From Streptomyces niger (GTDB lineage: Bacteria; Actinomycetota; Actinomycetes; Streptomycetales; Streptomycetaceae), in assembly GCF_000718305.1 (NCBI RefSeq), contig NZ_JOFQ01000022.1:1-64000 (forward strand): DNA of 64,000 nt, given 5' to 3'. Below the pieces are notes generated by a model that was not told the DNA's origin, did not search any database, and saw nothing but the letters and a program-made list of their open reading frames with translations. Of the stretch, positions 15,487 through 47,749 are shown piece by piece; positions within the stretch are counted from its first letter, which is position 1; every line of letters begins with the position of its first letter. A program made the translations under genes and the position numbers.

Positions 15487-15519
15487 AGTGATCGGCTCCG
15501 TACACCCTTCGGGGGTTGA

Positions 15520-16473
15520 TCACGTTGGCTGTCCGACACAGGATTCTTCCTGGTGATCGGCGGTGTGCCGGTCGAGCCTGGCCAGTAGATCGTCCAGGTC
15601 GGAGGTGGTGAACTTCCACTGGAACGGCTGTGCTGTGGCGTTGTAGCGGTCTTCGAAGGCTTGGAGCCGGTCCCTGACCTGGGCGAGGTCGGTGAAGTCG
15701 TTGGGGTGGGCGACCCTGCGCTGCACGACGGAGAAGTAGATTTCCACTTTCTCCGTCGTGCAGCTGGTTCAGCCAGGAAGCGTGCACTGGGGTATGGATT
15801 AGCACCGCATTCGGGAAGGCGGCCGACAACCGGTCGGCAGCCTTCTTGCCGCGGTGGGAGGAGCCGTTGTCCATGACCCAGAACACGCATTTCGCGCTGG
15901 CGTAGGGCTCGCGGGTCATGACCTGGGTGACCAGGATCATGAACGGGTCGATGCCGGTGGTCTTCTCACAGCGGCCGAACACCTTTGCGTCGTGGACGAC
16001 CTAAGCGGCCAGGTAGGCCAGGGTGCCGCCGCGTTCGTAGCTGTGGTTCATCCGCATCGCGCGGGCCTGGCCGGGGGCGAGGGTGGGGTGGCGGCGGCAG
16101 CGGGCCTGGATGGAGGTTTCTCGTCGGCGCTGATGACGTACTCGTCGGCGACGAGCGGGGTGCCCTGCAAGGTGCGGGCGTACAGGTCCAGCACACGCTG
16201 GGCTTTGGCGCGGAAATCGAGGTCGGCGATGAAGATTCAGAAGCGGTGCTGCCAGGGCTTGACCGCATCCTCGGCCAGCCAGCGGCGCACGGTGTCCAGG
16301 GGCAGTCCCGTCTCCTGGGCGATACGCGCGTTGGAGCGCCCGCGCGCGGCGTGCAGCACCACCTGTGCACGCACCCGCAGCCGGTGCTCGGTCTTGTGGC
16401 CGTAGGCCGTAGCCTTCACCCGCGCGCGGTCGGCGGCACTCGGGGCTATCGGGCAGGCAGTGCGGAGGGGCAT
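15520..16473 (-). pseudogene. IS630-family transposase, heavily frameshifted
   Basis: Fragments in different minus-strand frames appear in the right order: an N-terminal helix-turn-helix (RVRAQVVLHAARGRSNARIA, then QETGLPLDTVRRWLAED), the metal-binding Asp segment VFWVMDNGSSHRGKKAADR, HTPVHASWLNQL, and then IYFSVVQRRVAHPNDFTDLA with the last acidic residue. Several frameshifts and at least one stop separate them. It is related to, but clearly diverged from, the copy at 43883-45051. Confidence 0.75.
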
Positions 16474-16593
16474 GGCGGGCGAGCCGATCGGCCGAAGTGG
16501 ATCACTGGCAAGCCGCAGCCTTCCCCGCCCGCCGTGGCAGTGGAGCCCAGGCGCCGCGGCGGTCAGCGGGCGCCCAAGCTTGGACTGACCAGA

Positions 16594-17319
16594 TCACTCC
16601 ACCACGGGCATGCACTCGGCGAGCAGGTCGACGACGTCGCGCCAGGCGCGCTGCGCGTGTCGTGGGTGGTAGCCGACGCCGGGGCGCACGGTGTGGTCGA
16701 CCGGCGGGTGATGGAAGGCGTGCAAGGCGCCGCCGTAGACCGTGAGGCGCCAGTCGACGCCCGCTGCCTGCATCTCGGCGGTGAACGCGTCCCGTTGGGC
16801 GGGCGGCATGATCGGGTCTTCCGACCCGACCCCGGCCCACACCGGGCAGCGGATGTGCGCCGCCTCGCCCGGTCGGCCCGTGGTCAGTGCGTTGACTGTC
16901 CCGATCGCGCGCAGGTTGACGCCGTCGCGCCCGAGTTCCAGCCCGATGGCGCCGCCGGTGCCGTAACCAATGGCGGCGATCCGGTCGGGGTCGGTCCGCG
17001 GTTCGGCGCGCAACACGACGAGCGCCGCATGGCCAATCCCCCGCATCCGGTCGGGGTCGGCGAGCAGCGGCATGCAACGGGCCAGCATCTCCTCGGGGTC
17101 GCCCAGATAGCGTCCGCCGTGGAGGTCGAAGGCCAGCGCCACGTATCCCAGCTCGGCGAGAGCATCGGCTCGGCGGCGCTCGACGTCGCTGAGCCCCGTA
17201 CCCTCTGGTCCGAGCAGCACCGCGGGTCGGCGGTCGACACCGGCCGGGAGCGCGAGGTGCCCGATCATCGTCAAACCGTCGGCCGGGTACTGGACCGTGC
17301 GCGTGGTAATCGTCGTCAT
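16594..17319 (-). CDS. Dienelactone-hydrolase-family protein lacking the nucleophile Cys
   Basis: A 241-residue alpha/beta-hydrolase of the DLH family. Visible landmarks are the strand RPAVLLGPEGTGL, the DLHGGRYLGD segment, the Asp of the triad in VGSEDPIMPPAQRDAF and the His in YGGALHAFHHP. At the nucleophile elbow, where DLH enzymes have GYCFGG, this protein has GYGTGG (codon GGC instead of TGC), so the usual Cys is absent. It may be catalytically altered or inactive, or act on another principle. The ATG at 17319 was chosen because the family begins a few residues before the first strand. It is the passenger of the IS630-type element and reads in the same direction as its transposase. Confidence 0.85.
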   Translation of the reverse strand: MTTITTRTVQYPADGLTMIGHLALPAGVDRRPAVLLGPEGTGLSDVERRRADALAELGYVALAFDLHGGRYLGDPEEMLARCMPLLADPDRMRGIGHAALVVLRAEPRTDPDRIAAIGYGTGGAIGLELGRDGVNLRAIGTVNALTTGRPGEAAHIRCPVWAGVGSEDPIMPPAQRDAFTAEMQAAGVDWRLTVYGGALHAFHHPPVDHTVRPGVGYHPRHAQRAWRDVVDLLAECMPVVE

Positions 17320-17515
17320 GAGACTGGACTGTAGTGATCGTCGAGTCCGGTCCGGCCGGGGTTCGCCGCCGGCAGAACAGCGCGGGTGTCCCCCTGAAAT
17401 GCGGCGAGGGCCCACAAGAACCGTCACAACCCCCGTTCCCACGGCAGCACCTGCCCCGGCACCACGCACGTCACAGGTTCCGGAGTCCCCCCGAAGGATT
17501 CACGGAGCCGGCCAC

Positions 17516-43608: not shown

Positions 43609-43882
43609 TACTGGGCGCCCCCTTGATGATGTTGTCGAACGACATTACTGTGCCAGGAGCGCCCGCGTGGCGACCTCGGCGTCGAGGACACGCATCGCAT
43701 CGAGGACACACATCGCATCGGACACCCGCCACCGCGGAACGTGTTGATCTCGACCGCGGCATACGCTCAAGGCCCCGCGGCGTACCCAGCCCGCGCGCCC
43801 AGCCCGCGTGCCCAGTCCGCCCGCTTCCGCCAACATCACGCGCGGTTCTTAGTGGTCGGCTCCGAAAGTCCTTCGGGGGTGA

Positions 43883-45051
43883 TCATGCTGTCAGGGCGAT
43901 GGAGGATTCTTGGTTCGGTCGGCAGTTGTGTGTCGGTCGAGCCGGGCCAGCAGATCGGCCAGGTCGGAGGTGGTGAACCTTCCACTGGAACGGCTGTGCC
44001 GCGGCGTTGTAGCGGCCTTCGAATGCTCGAAGCCGGTCCCGGACCTGGGGCAGGTGTGTGAAGTCGTTGGGTGAGACGACCTTGCGCTGGACGATCGAGA
44101 AGAAGATCTCGACCTGGTTTGTCCATGGGGCGTGGACGGGGGTGCGGGCCATGACCGCGTTCGGAAACGCCTTGGTCAGGCGGTCGATTGCCTTCTTTTC
44201 CCGGTGAGAGGAGCCGTTGTCGACGATCCAGAAGACGGGTCTGGCACTGGCGTAGGGCTCGGTGGTCATGACCTGTTCGACCAGGGCCATGAACGGCGCG
44301 ATGCCGGTGGTGACCTCGCAGCGGCCGAAGACTTTCGTCCGGTGGGCGTCGTAGGCGGCCAGATAGGCCACGGCACCGCCGCGGCCGTAGGTGTGGTTGA
44401 CGCGCATCGCCCTGGCCCGGCCTGGGGCCAGGGCCGGGTGGCAGCGGCAGCGGGCCTGGATCGAGGTCTTCTCGTCGCTGGAGACCACGTATTCGTCCCC
44501 GCCGAGGGGTTCGCCTTCGTAGGTTCGGGCGTACAGGTCAAGAACGCGCTGGGCATTGGCGCGGAAGTCCGGGTCCCGGATGAAGATCCAGGACTGGAAC
44601 TGCCAGGGCTTGAGCACGTCCTGGCGCAGCCAGCGGCGCACGGTGGACGCTGAGACGGTGTCGGTGACGCCGCGTGAGGTCAGTTCGGCGGCCAGTTCCG
44701 GGCACGACCAGCGTGCCAGCGGCACCCCGGTCTCGGCCGGGAGCTGGCAGGCCAGGGCCTTGGCCTCGGCGACCTGCACGGAGGTGAAGCGGGCCGGGCG
44801 CCCGCTGCGTTTGCGGTCGGCCAGGGCCGGCAGGCCGCCGTCGGCGAACCGGCCCCGCCAGGTGCGCACGGTGTCCACGTACACTCCCACCTCGCCAGCG
44901 ATCTGCGCGTTGGATCTGCCCGGGTCGCCATGAGCACGATCTGTGACCGGACCCTGGCCTGGTACGGAGTCTTGTGACCGTAGGCCGCCTTCTTCAACCG
45001 TTGCCTTTGTGAGGCGGTCAGGGATATAGGGCAGGCGGTGGCAACAGGCAA
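43883..45051 (-). pseudogene. IS630-family transposase with two frameshifts
   Basis: Beginning at 45051 the N-terminus (CPISLTASQRQRLKKAAYGH, QARVRSQIVLMATRADP) loses frame near 44925 and continues from 44890 as VYVDTVRTWRGRFADGGLPA, WSCPELAAELTSRGVTDTV and the catalytic core: first Asp VVSSDEKTSIQARCR, second Asp VFWIVDNGSSHREKKAIDR, and Glu PWTNQVEIFFSIVQRKV. At 43983 one extra G before the final TTSDLADLLARLDRH segment shifts the frame again. The core is intact. Both lesions are single-base, so the copy was active recently or has been kept mobile by another copy. Confidence 0.85.
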
Positions 45052-45376
45052 GGCAGGCAGGCCGATCAGTAGAAGTGGATCTTATCTGCGGGAGTGAGCA
45101 GCGCCCGCGCCCCGACGACCGGGCAGGTTGGACGCATACTCACCGTGTCGGAGTCGTCCAACTCCCCCTCACCCAGAACCTGACCGTCCGTGCCCGCGGC
45201 TCCTGGCCCAGCTCGCGGGCCTGGACGTCGGTCACCGCGGCAGTTCGCCTCTGCCGACAACTGGCTGACGGACGGACCCGCCGGCCCCGGCTTGCCCCGG
45301 CTAGGAACTGCGGCCTCTGCACGACCCGGACACCCCGAGGACACCGACGACGGGTGCGCGGATGGGTGTGAGGGGG

Positions 45377-46288
45377 TCAGGAGGCCGGCGTGGCCAGGTA
45401 GTCGCCGTGCTCCAGGTCTTCGAGCAGTGTCGGATGGGTGGGAGACCAGCCGAGCAGTTCCTGTGTGTGAGTACTGGAGACGGGGGCGTCGAAGCCGTAG
45501 ACCTTGGCCATGAACGGGCTGGCGTAGTGCCCGGCGGCCTGGTCGGGGGTCAGGGAGACCATGGGCAGGTCCAGGCCCCGGGCGATGGTCTGCGCGATGC
45601 CCTTCATGGTGACGCCGTTTTCGGCGACTCCGTGCAGCATGCTGCCTGCAGGAGCCTTCTCCAGTGCCAGGCGGAACAGAGCCGCGGCGTCGAGCCGGTG
45701 CACTGCGGGCCACCGGTTGGCGCCGTCGCCGACGTAGGCCGAGACGCCGGTCTTTCGTGCGGTGGCGATGAGCATGGGGATGAAGCCGTGGTCTTCGGGG
45801 CCGTGGACGGTGGGAGCGAGGCGGACCACGCTCGCGCGTACTCCCCGGGCGGCGAAGTCCAAGCAGGCCCGCTCGCCCGCGATGCGGAAGGCGGCGAGCC
45901 CCGCCGTGTCGGGCTCGTCCTTCTCCGTGGTCTCCCGGCCGGCGGGCATGACCAGCGTGCCCGAGGTGATGACGAGCGGCTTGCCCGAGTGCTCCAGCGG
46001 CTGGCCGAGGGCCTCGATCGCGGTCCGATCGCGCCTCATCATGTCGTCGAGGTCGGAGAAGTCCCCGCCGTAGGCCATGTGCAGGACGCCGTCGGCGGCT
46101 TCGGCGCCGCGGCGCAGGCTGTCGTGGTCGTCCAGGGAGCCGCGGTGTGGTGTGGCGCCCAGCGCCTCCAGCCGGGTGGCGGCGGCATCCGAGCGCGCCA
46201 GACCAGTGACGTTGTGGCCGGCCGCGATGAGCTCGGTGACGACGGCGGGGCCGGTCTGGCCAGAACCGCCGGTGACGAAAATACGCAT
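45377..46288 (-). CDS. NAD(P)-binding SDR-family epimerase/dehydratase-like protein
   Basis: 303 residues, extended/atypical short-chain dehydrogenase. The nucleotide-binding loop is MRIFVTGGSGQTGPAVVTEL (GGSGQTG), followed by VTGLARSDAAATRLEALGA. Later come VLHMAYGGDFSDLDDM, LVITSGTLVMPAGRE, and RLAPTVHGPEDHGFIPMLIA. The classical YxxxK is replaced by FRIAGERACLDF, as in several atypical members. It is divergent from the TetR gene, and the operator array lies between them, so it is probably the regulated target. The likely role is reduction or modification of a toxic carbonyl compound; the substrate is unknown. Confidence 0.85.
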   Translation of the reverse strand: MRIFVTGGSGQTGPAVVTELIAAGHNVTGLARSDAAATRLEALGATPHRGSLDDHDSLRRGAEAADGVLHMAYGGDFSDLDDMMRRDRTAIEALGQPLEHSGKPLVITSGTLVMPAGRETTEKDEPDTAGLAAFRIAGERACLDFAARGVRASVVRLAPTVHGPEDHGFIPMLIATARKTGVSAYVGDGANRWPAVHRLDAAALFRLALEKAPAGSMLHGVAENGVTMKGIAQTIARGLDLPMVSLTPDQAAGHYASPFMAKVYGFDAPVSSTHTQELLGWSPTHPTLLEDLEHGDYLATPAS

Positions 46289-46500
46289 GGAAACGCTCTC
46301 CCTGTGGGCGAGTGCACCGGGGCCGCCGAATGGGTCCAGTGCGGGTGAGGCGGGAATGGCCTGCCTATCGAGGGCAGCAGCGCACCGACGTGTCGCATGC
46401 GCGTCCTGTCAGAGCCGACGAGGGGGAGGGAAACCTGGTCACCTCGACGGTGTTCGGGCCGAAAGGCCGGGGCCGCTGCCACCAGCGGCGAACAACCTTC

Positions 46501-46592
46501 CACTTAGCGCCAGTCACTGGCGCTAAGTGACGCCAGTCACTGACTTTACGTAGCGCCAGTCACTGGCGTCAAGCGGTGTCAGTCACTGGCAT
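46501..46592. promoter_or_regulatory. Array of palindromic operators between SDR and TetR genes
   Basis: 46501-46529 is a perfect 14+1+14 palindrome (CACTTAGCGCCAGT, C, ACTGGCGCTAAGTG). The core CCAGTCACTG or a one-base variant recurs at about 46531-46542, 46555-46566 and 46580-46590, giving four sites. The last overlaps the promoter of the TetR gene (TATCTT, 46599-46604). This is the expected position for TetR autoregulation and control of the divergent SDR. Confidence 0.8.
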
Positions 46593-46610
46593 ATGCGGTA
46601 TCTTCGAGAG

Positions 46611-47201
46611 GTGCCACGAAGCGGAATGGATGCGCGCCGCCGCCTGAAGCAGGCGGCTCTGGAGCTGTACCGGGAGCGTGGGTTCGATCAGACCACCACG
46701 GCTGAGATCGCTGCCCGGGCGGGCGTCAACGAGCGCACGTTCTTCCGGCATTTCCCGGACAAGCGCGAGGTGCTCTTCGACGGCGAAGCCGACCTGCGCG
46801 CCGCGCTGACACAAGAGGTCGCCGACGCCCCCGATGGCCTGCAGCCACTCGGCGTCCTGCTGTACGCATTCCGGAAAGCCGGACGAATCCTTGAGGACAA
46901 CCGCCCGTTCTCCGAGCCACGGCTAGCGGTCATCGCCAAGACCCCAGCCCTCCGGGAGCGTGACTTGGCCAAGGCCGCAGCCCTCACCGAAGCCGTGGCG
47001 GAGGCGCTACGTCAGCGCGATGTCCCCGACCGGCTGGCCAGCCTGGCCGCACACACCGGCTGGGCCACCTTCCACCACGCCGCCCAAGCCTGGATCGACG
47101 ACCCCGCACAGAGCTTGGACGTACATCTCCTCCAAGCCTTCGACGATCTGCACGCCCTCTCCGCGACCGTCCCACCGGAACAGGCGCGGCCTGAAAGCTG
47201 A
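46611..47201 (+). CDS. TetR/AcrR-family regulator, probably leaderless
   Basis: 196 residues. The helix-turn-helix (residues about 15-55) reads FDQTTTAEIAARAGVNERTF and FRHFPDKREVLFDGE; the C-terminal part is a typical helical ligand domain ending near FDDLHALSATVPPEQ. TATCTT (46599-46604) is a good -10 element 6 bp before the GTG at 46611, so I prefer this leaderless start over ATG 46593 or ATG 46626. It is divergent from the SDR gene, with four operator-like repeats between them. It belongs to the same subgroup as the TetR of the 1.4-3.5 kb cassette. Confidence 0.88.
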   Translation: MPRSGMDARRRLKQAALELYRERGFDQTTTAEIAARAGVNERTFFRHFPDKREVLFDGEADLRAALTQEVADAPDGLQPLGVLLYAFRKAGRILEDNRPFSEPRLAVIAKTPALRERDLAKAAALTEAVAEALRQRDVPDRLASLAAHTGWATFHHAAQAWIDDPAQSLDVHLLQAFDDLHALSATVPPEQARPES

Positions 47202-47353
47202 TACCGCTCCGCCCGCGACGACCCATCGACGCAAGCAAACGGCAGCGTCCGGAGTCAACCCCCGAAGGACTTTCGGAGCCGACCACTTAGGAACCTCGCG
47301 CGCGAGGAGCTCGGCCGTGGTCAAGGTGTCTCGATGGGCTTCCGCTCACCACG

Positions 47354-47434
47354 CAGCTTCGTTCCCCAAGGTCACGTCGGCGAAGCTACGTTCCCCAAGG
47401 TCTCGTAGGCAAAGCTTCGTTCCCCGAGGTCACC
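47354..47434. repeat. 29-bp imperfect tandem repeat
   Basis: AGCTTCGTTCCCCAAGGTCA... is followed by two diverged copies (47383 and 47412). It lies between the IS630 element end and the 47.75-kb repeats. From 47288 to 47850 no gene is recognisable. Confidence 0.8.
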
Positions 47435-47749
47435 GTGCCAGCCGCTTACGGCGATCCGCTGCGCTCACGTCCGTCGGTCATGCTGCCGTTGCGGGCGGGA
47501 GCCTCCGGCGCATGGAATGAGCGGCCAGCCGAAGGCTCCCTCGGCGCCTGTTGGGTGGTACTTGTGGTTCCAGGCGCCGGACGACGAGCGGGGCGGAAGG
47601 CATCCGCAGCCGTTACCAGCGGTTACCCGACTCGTCGGCCGTACATTATGCACGCTTCCTGCCCAAGATTTTCCTCAATGAGGACGCGCCTGACGGCGTC
47701 AGCGCCTCGGCGTACCCCTGAGCAGTGCGATTCACGGGCTCGGGAGCGA

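Follow-up and report, generated by a model that had tools for sequence, protein, structure and literature searches.

Insertion sequences (ISs) are usually counted as carrying a transposase alone. Passenger genes unrelated to transposition are described inside the own ends of transporter ISs (tISs; PMC9330008, PMC3129680), and the accounts of IS231-MIC231 elements describe variable passenger genes placed between the transposase and one of the ends as well as transposase-less cassettes with the same ends (PMC2266710, PMC3913671). IS630 elements are given as about 1,250 bp long with one or two open reading frames (ORFs) (PMC11092175), those of Ralstonia as 237-1,128 bp (PMC7371123), and are reported to generally duplicate TA (PMC10045372). 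Neither a tIS of the IS630 family nor an IS630 element with passenger genes in Streptomyces appeared in the open titles and abstracts that were surveyed, ISfinder and subscription journals being outside that scope. Here we describe a unit of 3,435 bp (WIN1, 43852-47286) in a stretch of 64,000 nucleotides from Streptomyces niger (contig NZ_JOFQ01000022.1, positions 1 to 64,000; hereafter the window), in which an IS630-type transposase gene shares one pair of ends with an SDR gene and a TetR gene. This unit is very probably a cargo-carrying IS630-type transposon from a family of gene carriers found mainly in Streptomycetaceae. It is one of 60 cargo units and not a singular case.

A cargo-bearing IS630 unit

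WIN1 is framed by an inverted repeat of 33 nt with 97% identity (43848-43880 and 47258-47290). The 29-nt core of these ends, with up to 3 mismatches allowed, occurs at exactly two places in the 64-kb window and at none in 100 shuffles. TTA lies outside each end, in the context C-TTA on the left and TTA-G on the right. Between the ends follow, from left to right, the transposase gene, a truncated small gene, the SDR gene, an array with 23-bp spacing and the TetR gene, with the right end (RE) closing the unit (Table 1). The first-pass annotation had noticed that inverted repeats bracket an IS630 transposase, an SDR gene, a divergent TetR gene and an operator array, and all of these were located as a single unit with common ends. 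It had further placed a usual right end near 45.05-45.08 kb and taken the later repeat for an extra, inverted copy of the left end (LE); this has to be given up, as the repeat at 47.26 kb is the element's own RE. In basic relatives without cargo, the element continues to a right end about 0.5 kb past the equivalent of 45.05-45.08 kb; this position marks where the strong conservation 5' of the transposase stops and is not a terminus, and the cargo of WIN1 replaces the central part of the small gene found there in basic members.

The transposase belongs to the IS630 family, matching NCBIfam NF033545 at 144 bits (cut-off 100) and DDE_3. Its N-terminus is read in one frame, the DDE core in a second, and the C-terminus back in the first. 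As two frameshifts make unaided movement improbable, WIN1 is probably immobile now unless helped in trans. Programmed frameshifting was considered and rejected because many relatives align in a single frame across all 368 residues, and the transposase of locus L004 is annotated as one coding sequence; other broken copies include L001, L007, L052, L061, and L101. Basic and cargo forms, whose transposases are related, share the same terminal inverted repeats, and the IS630 protein presumably recognises them. The LE of WIN1, GGGGGTGATCA, has one T fewer at its inner edge than the family form, GGGGGTTGATCA. Three 29-bp direct repeats (47352-47438) lie immediately beyond the right end.

Table 1. 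Features of WIN1 and of a second family member in the window
Feature	Position	Strand	Basis or remark
Left target-site copy, TTA	43849..43851		C-TTA precedes the element; left flank ...ttctta then GTGG, matched
Left end (LE)	43852..43884	+	Inverted repeat
IS630-family transposase gene	43883..45051	-	Two frameshifts, near 44.92 and 43.98 kb
DDE core of the transposase (ORF)	43883-44890	-	ORF list, domain search
Transposase 5' region and truncated remnant of the divergent ~107-aa gene of the basic form	44920..45271		Spacer-model positions 2-294 of 541
Cargo (SDR gene, operator region, TetR gene)	45272..47201		No match to basic spacer; edges approximate
NAD-dependent epimerase/SDR-type oxidoreductase, 303 aa	45377..46288	-	ORF, domain search
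Operator-like array, palindromic CCAGTSACTGGC motif per 23 bp	46502..46588		Repeat analysis
TetR-family regulator, 202 aa	46593..47201	+	TetR_N; MftR-like C-terminal domain
Right end (RE) and 3' remnant of basic spacer	47202..47286	-	Model positions 455-541; terminal repeat 47258-47286
Right target-site copy, TTA	47287..47289		Right flank CCAC then ttagg
Second, decayed family member	15488..17515		Broken transposase, TAA at both flanks
Dienelactone-hydrolase cargo of the second member	16594-17469	-	Pfam

The array between the two cargo genes repeats CCAGTCACTGGC with a 23-bp period. Family knowledge suggests that the TetR regulator might bind this array and that the SDR enzyme might act in detoxification. 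Among 150 Streptomyces genomes, the three closest pairs (G032, G055, and G077; SDR 87-89%, TetR about 82%) also have the CCAGTSACTGGC motif, mostly with 23-bp spacing, between their SDR and TetR genes, with about 1 kb extra between the genes in G032. The cassette is the sole part shared by these three different neighbourhoods, and family ends and transposase are absent from the 10-12 kb around each of them. Adjacent matches of lower identity to both genes were found in at least 26 further genomes among the matches listed. Divergent SDR-TetR pairs are thus common in the genus and, since they occur without the element, not peculiar to the transposon. The first-pass annotation had conceded that fixed SDR and TetR neighbours in strains without the IS would speak against its reading; this objection stands in part, as element-free pairs exist, in three different neighbourhoods.

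A family with changing cargo

Relatives were drawn from transposase-based and end-motif searches. A megablast search with WIN1 against plasmids gave 16 records, none covering most of the unit, and an inverted far end behind other genes was clear in eight of the ten plasmid records examined (degenerate in L008). A scan of genome contigs contributed the best 80 of 178 loci, and the 150 Streptomyces genomes another 20. The exact 18-nt end core was present in 53 genomes out of a sample of 392 from Streptomyces, and 57 regions with this core were taken, leaving out places in G019, G038, G075, G090, G119, and G146 that were already in the set and using two places in G167. Both ends were located in 59 of 109 transposase entries (the other 50 include contig ends, loci with about 1.5 kb of flank, and decayed copies), while 26 of the end-motif regions yielded one unit each. 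After six with identical flanks were dropped, 79 of these 85 units were kept: 19 units below 1.8 kb, 58 cargo-bearing ones of 2.0-6.1 kb that have a transposase or its remains, and two without a transposase. We call units below 1.8 kb basic, including L170 with its decayed content; because of the mixed search origin, the ratio of short to long units is no population estimate. The short form measures 1.5-1.75 kb, mostly with an extra ORF. A control of the end motif over 806,371 bases returned 116 occurrences of the real motif, 2 of the reversed motif, and 0-3 for each of 20 shuffled motifs. The first-pass annotation had suggested looking for the same outer ends around other cargo, and dozens of elements proved to have them, with TTA matched at the outer ends of WIN1. 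In annotated plasmid records, such units are labelled just "IS630 family transposase" or "transposase" beside ordinary-looking neighbours.

Some members seem to reach high copy numbers. One Streptomyces genome (G167, loci L174 and L175) has 28 exact end cores, and where this could be judged the listed ones lie near contig edges, as expected of a high-copy element. In Williamsia sp. 1135, 13 contigs (L074-L086) start or finish in one more distant, high-copy IS630 element. The window itself holds a second, decayed family member (Table 1), and the cargo of L162 is related to its dienelactone-hydrolase cargo. A unit of 6.1 kb (L158:5685-11792, TTA/TTA) has its transposase split in two pieces and another DDE transposase next to a kinase-like cargo gene.

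The 60 cargo units (58 long, two transposase-less) fall into 41 groups at 60% identity, a cut-off-dependent count, with 30 units standing alone, among them WIN1. A Pfam reading of 60 proteins, which does not cover every ORF, found among the cargo dienelactone hydrolase, carbon-nitrogen hydrolase, methyltransferases, GNAT acetyltransferases, PEP mutase, S66 peptidase, amidase, beta-lactamase-fold proteins, multicopper oxidase, MFS transporters, mycothiol-S-transferase, ice-binding protein, and TPR plus MerR, as well as enzymes combined with regulators (SDR with TetR, aldo-keto reductase with a regulator, alcohol dehydrogenase with TetR and a hydrolase); four cargo proteins gave no match in Pfam. 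Where the modules of two units were at least 90% identical over 900 bases, the cargo differed in 24 of 29 pairs and was the same in five, although these pairs are not independent and many come from one branch. In a midpoint-rooted tree of 68 modules, WIN1 stands beside L122 and L148 (support 100/95 and 100/99), both of which carry an aldo-keto reductase. A branch of 32 rows (100/100) holds cargo forms only, and the short or cargo label changes seven times on the tree compared with a mean of 16 after shuffling. The cargo state is thus inherited in part, while the identity of the cargo changes often. Cargo is found in 50 of 61 rows inside the large clade, while all seven rows outside it are basic (three Mycobacterium, two Nocardia, Nonomuraea, and Actinoplanes), which would fit a basic ancestor.

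In 16 of 17 listed short units, the basic form has a single ORF of 107-167 residues oriented divergently from the transposase, L040 being without it; the list includes two units of the same insertion and excludes L125, L126, and L170. From 11 sequences of the basic spacer, a model of 541 positions was built in which the small gene lies at about 152-478. In the 39 cargo units compared with this model, the spacer is kept on the left up to positions 40-517 and on the right from 148-511. With edges approximate, the 3' edge of the small gene is kept in 24 of these 39 units and pieces of both edges in six (L002, L015, L023, L033, L066, and WIN1, which retains positions 2-294 and 455-541). The small gene is nearly or wholly kept in L012 and L017, with L012 retaining 1-125 and 148-541 beside its cargo. 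The small protein itself (about 107 aa; e.g. L038:8527-8850) has 78 homologues; almost all of those with a name are called "hypothetical protein". Its L001 copy has no Pfam match, and the AlphaFold model of the L038 copy (pLDDT 84) matched no PDB fold at E <= 0.001 among 942 weak matches. One clustering hinted at a fusion of the GNAT cargo of L032 and L102 (95% identical DNA) to the small gene; the hint was not reproduced and is not claimed.

Target sites and possible routes of cargo acquisition

The same 3 nt adjoin both ends in 54 of the 79 units. Where TAA or TTA (TWA) flanks a unit on both sides, the two copies agree in 53 of 57 units compared with 52% expected (binomial p 2e-11, units treated as independent), namely in 13/13 short, 39/43 long, and 1/1 transposase-less units; L123 is flanked by TCA on both sides. 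The outer letters are C before and G after the unit in 69 of 79. Moreover, near-identical cargo units stand at different sites, as in L005/L046 (module 98%, cargo 97%), L014/L061 (98, 97), L035/L043 (96, 96), and L004/L166 (93, 93). The concordance of the outer TWA copies argues that cargo units of this family would insert whole, cargo included, in one step, a statement about a pattern and not about an observed reaction. For the 2.46-kb unit of L163, the alignment with a related genome, G023, runs straight across the site at 86% over 600 bases, with the unit absent from G023. The first-pass annotation had imagined WIN1 as a mobile, self-regulated detoxification module; the matched TTA and the family's cargo units at several sites would agree with movement of the whole unit, while the two frameshifts make self-mobility unlikely.

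At one locus (L164:6021-6023), two family ends stand back to back with one TTA in common; at this place one element seems to have landed precisely beside another. Hairpin targeting was dismissed as a family trait (median z 0.09 over 54 matched units); the joined flanks of WIN1 (43834-43851 and 47290-47304) form a strong hairpin around CTTAG (z -2.2).

Several observations weigh against reading WIN1 and its relatives as mobile cargo carriers. One of the first ten relatives (L003) has no far end within 4.1 kb, and 31 of the 57 end-motif loci yield no usable pair. Matched 3-nt flanks are missing in 25 of the 79 units, among which L004, L133, L151, and L164 have TWA on both sides in differing forms, and the outer T and A of TWA are formally assignable to target or element. 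Of the empty sites that the first-pass annotation had hoped for, none was found for WIN1 in 99 other genomes. The one for L163 comes from the only such genome among 150 searched and reads GGGGAAT where TAAG is expected, so that a 3-nt duplication is not proven there. Six matches were counted in the genome of the window, both listed ones lying in this window, and this genome shows no other clear family end: the 18-nt core with up to 2 mismatches finds the right end of WIN1 and one doubtful place only, the left end escaping this pattern by its missing T. The SDR and TetR cargo of WIN1 recurs in no other of the 60 cargo units, and the cargo groups shrink to 21 with no identity limit and with chaining. 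Finally, the capture route outlined below is based on a handful of intermediates, most units being without an inner end.

In the mechanism that we propose, the IS630 DDE transposase would recognise inverted ends of about 33 bp and move everything between a suitably placed inverted pair, with insertion into C-TWA-G sites leaving TWA on each side. The ancestral element might have consisted of LE, transposase, small divergent gene, and RE (about 1.67 kb). Cargo forms would have arisen from it many times as other DNA replaced or entered the stretch from the transposase 5' region to RE, in most cases at the cost of the small gene. Capture could start when two family ends, the second from a neighbouring copy or a solo end, come to flank a chromosomal segment; the transposase would then pair the outer ends and skip the inner ones, which would erode later. 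The segment captured by WIN1 would be a complete cassette, a TetR-regulated SDR gene with its operators, and the transposase would have decayed afterwards. We consider such pairing of outer ends past a skipped inner end plausible, if somewhat short of probable. In L036, an almost intact right end (model 468-537) still separates the transposase from the cargo, and another right end closes the unit on the outside; L147 has an inner end with 7 mismatches. In L017, a nearly whole basic element (model 1-517) is followed by cargo and by an inverted transposase fragment with LE, and TTA stands on either side of the unit; L134 has the same layout with unmatched flanks. L011 and L060 have LE-like far ends, while L159 (3,897 bp, TAA/TAA) and L160 have no transposase match. 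Such intermediates would be expected if any two ends in inverted orientation can pair.

As most units are without a trace of an inner end, cargo insertion into a single element stays a rival for the capture step, and one that we take seriously while thinking it rather doubtful. Illegitimate recombination would have put the cargo in or beside the small gene of one basic element, without a second end, and the transposase would then carry it along. The pieces of both small-gene edges around cargo in 6/39 units, the 3' edge in 24/39, the whole small gene beside cargo in L012, and the varying junction positions would all suit this route, while the second ends in L036, L147, L017, and L134 are unneeded by it.

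An ordinary composite transposon, in which two complete IS copies flanked the genes and moved them, is very unlikely for WIN1, which has a single broken transposase and a right-type far end. The second, inverted, truncated transposases at the far ends of L017 and L134 point in the composite direction, and this route may be the origin of a minority of units; among transposase-bearing units, an LE-like far end is found only in L011, L017, L060, and L134. It is also highly improbable that the far repeat of WIN1 is a solo end or miniature element beside an IS630 element that happened to lie near chromosomal SDR and TetR genes and never moved with them as a unit. The common ends without a detected partner, the SDR-TetR pairs without the element, and the lack of a second unit with the cargo of WIN1 agree with such an arrangement. 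Against it stand the TTA on both sides of WIN1, the concordance of the long units, the same layout with other cargo in 58 transposase-bearing units, and the presence of some cargo units at different sites. A dedicated integron-like device, by which the element's machinery inserts cassettes in a slot between transposase and RE, is scarcely credible: it would suit the strong variation and rapid cargo turnover of a slot next to a conserved module, while the junctions scatter over the spacer with no common sequence or position, and no integrase domain was found among the 60 proteins given to Pfam.

This IS630 lineage might have become a standing gene carrier of Streptomycetaceae, an outlook that we judge evenly balanced. 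Its LE-transposase module would pair with any family end past neighbouring genes, cargo exchange would outpace transposase divergence, and complete regulator-plus-enzyme cassettes (oxidoreductases, hydrolases, transferases, efflux) would pass from genus to genus on small units with a single transposase, while satellites without a transposase would be moved in trans. In one actinomycete lineage, units of 2-6 kb hold a wide range of metabolic and regulatory genes, which offers a concrete, testable route for the horizontal spread of regulated enzyme genes in Streptomyces. The gain and swapping of cargo by an IS is further open to study here, since very similar transposases occur in basic, intermediate, and cargo-bearing elements.

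Relation to described systems

The family resembles typical IS630 elements in its transposase family, DDE core, and terminal inverted repeats. It differs from the description of IS630 elements as holding transposition genes only in about 1.1-1.3 kb, as its transposase-bearing units measure 1.5-6.1 kb and have TWA flanks. Likeness to composite transposons is confined to L017 and L134 with their inverted second LE and transposase piece, whereas WIN1 has one transposase and an LE/RE pair. As in tISs, passenger genes lie inside the element, with SDR and TetR sitting between LE and RE. Ends, transposase, and variable passenger genes are likewise combined in IS231-MIC231, as far as the cited accounts describe it, yet that system has an IS4-family transposase and belongs to the Bacillus cereus group, while the family here has an IS630 transposase (the IS630 model scores above its cut-off in WIN1), C-TWA-G targets, and actinomycete hosts. 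The MIC form, with ends and a target duplication and no transposase, is not that of WIN1 and is seen, in form, in L159. In contrast to IS231-MIC231, the family here has an ancestral small divergent gene that is interrupted by cargo. The family is thus best filed as a modular cargo-carrying IS akin to tISs and IS231-MIC231, with an IS630 transposase.

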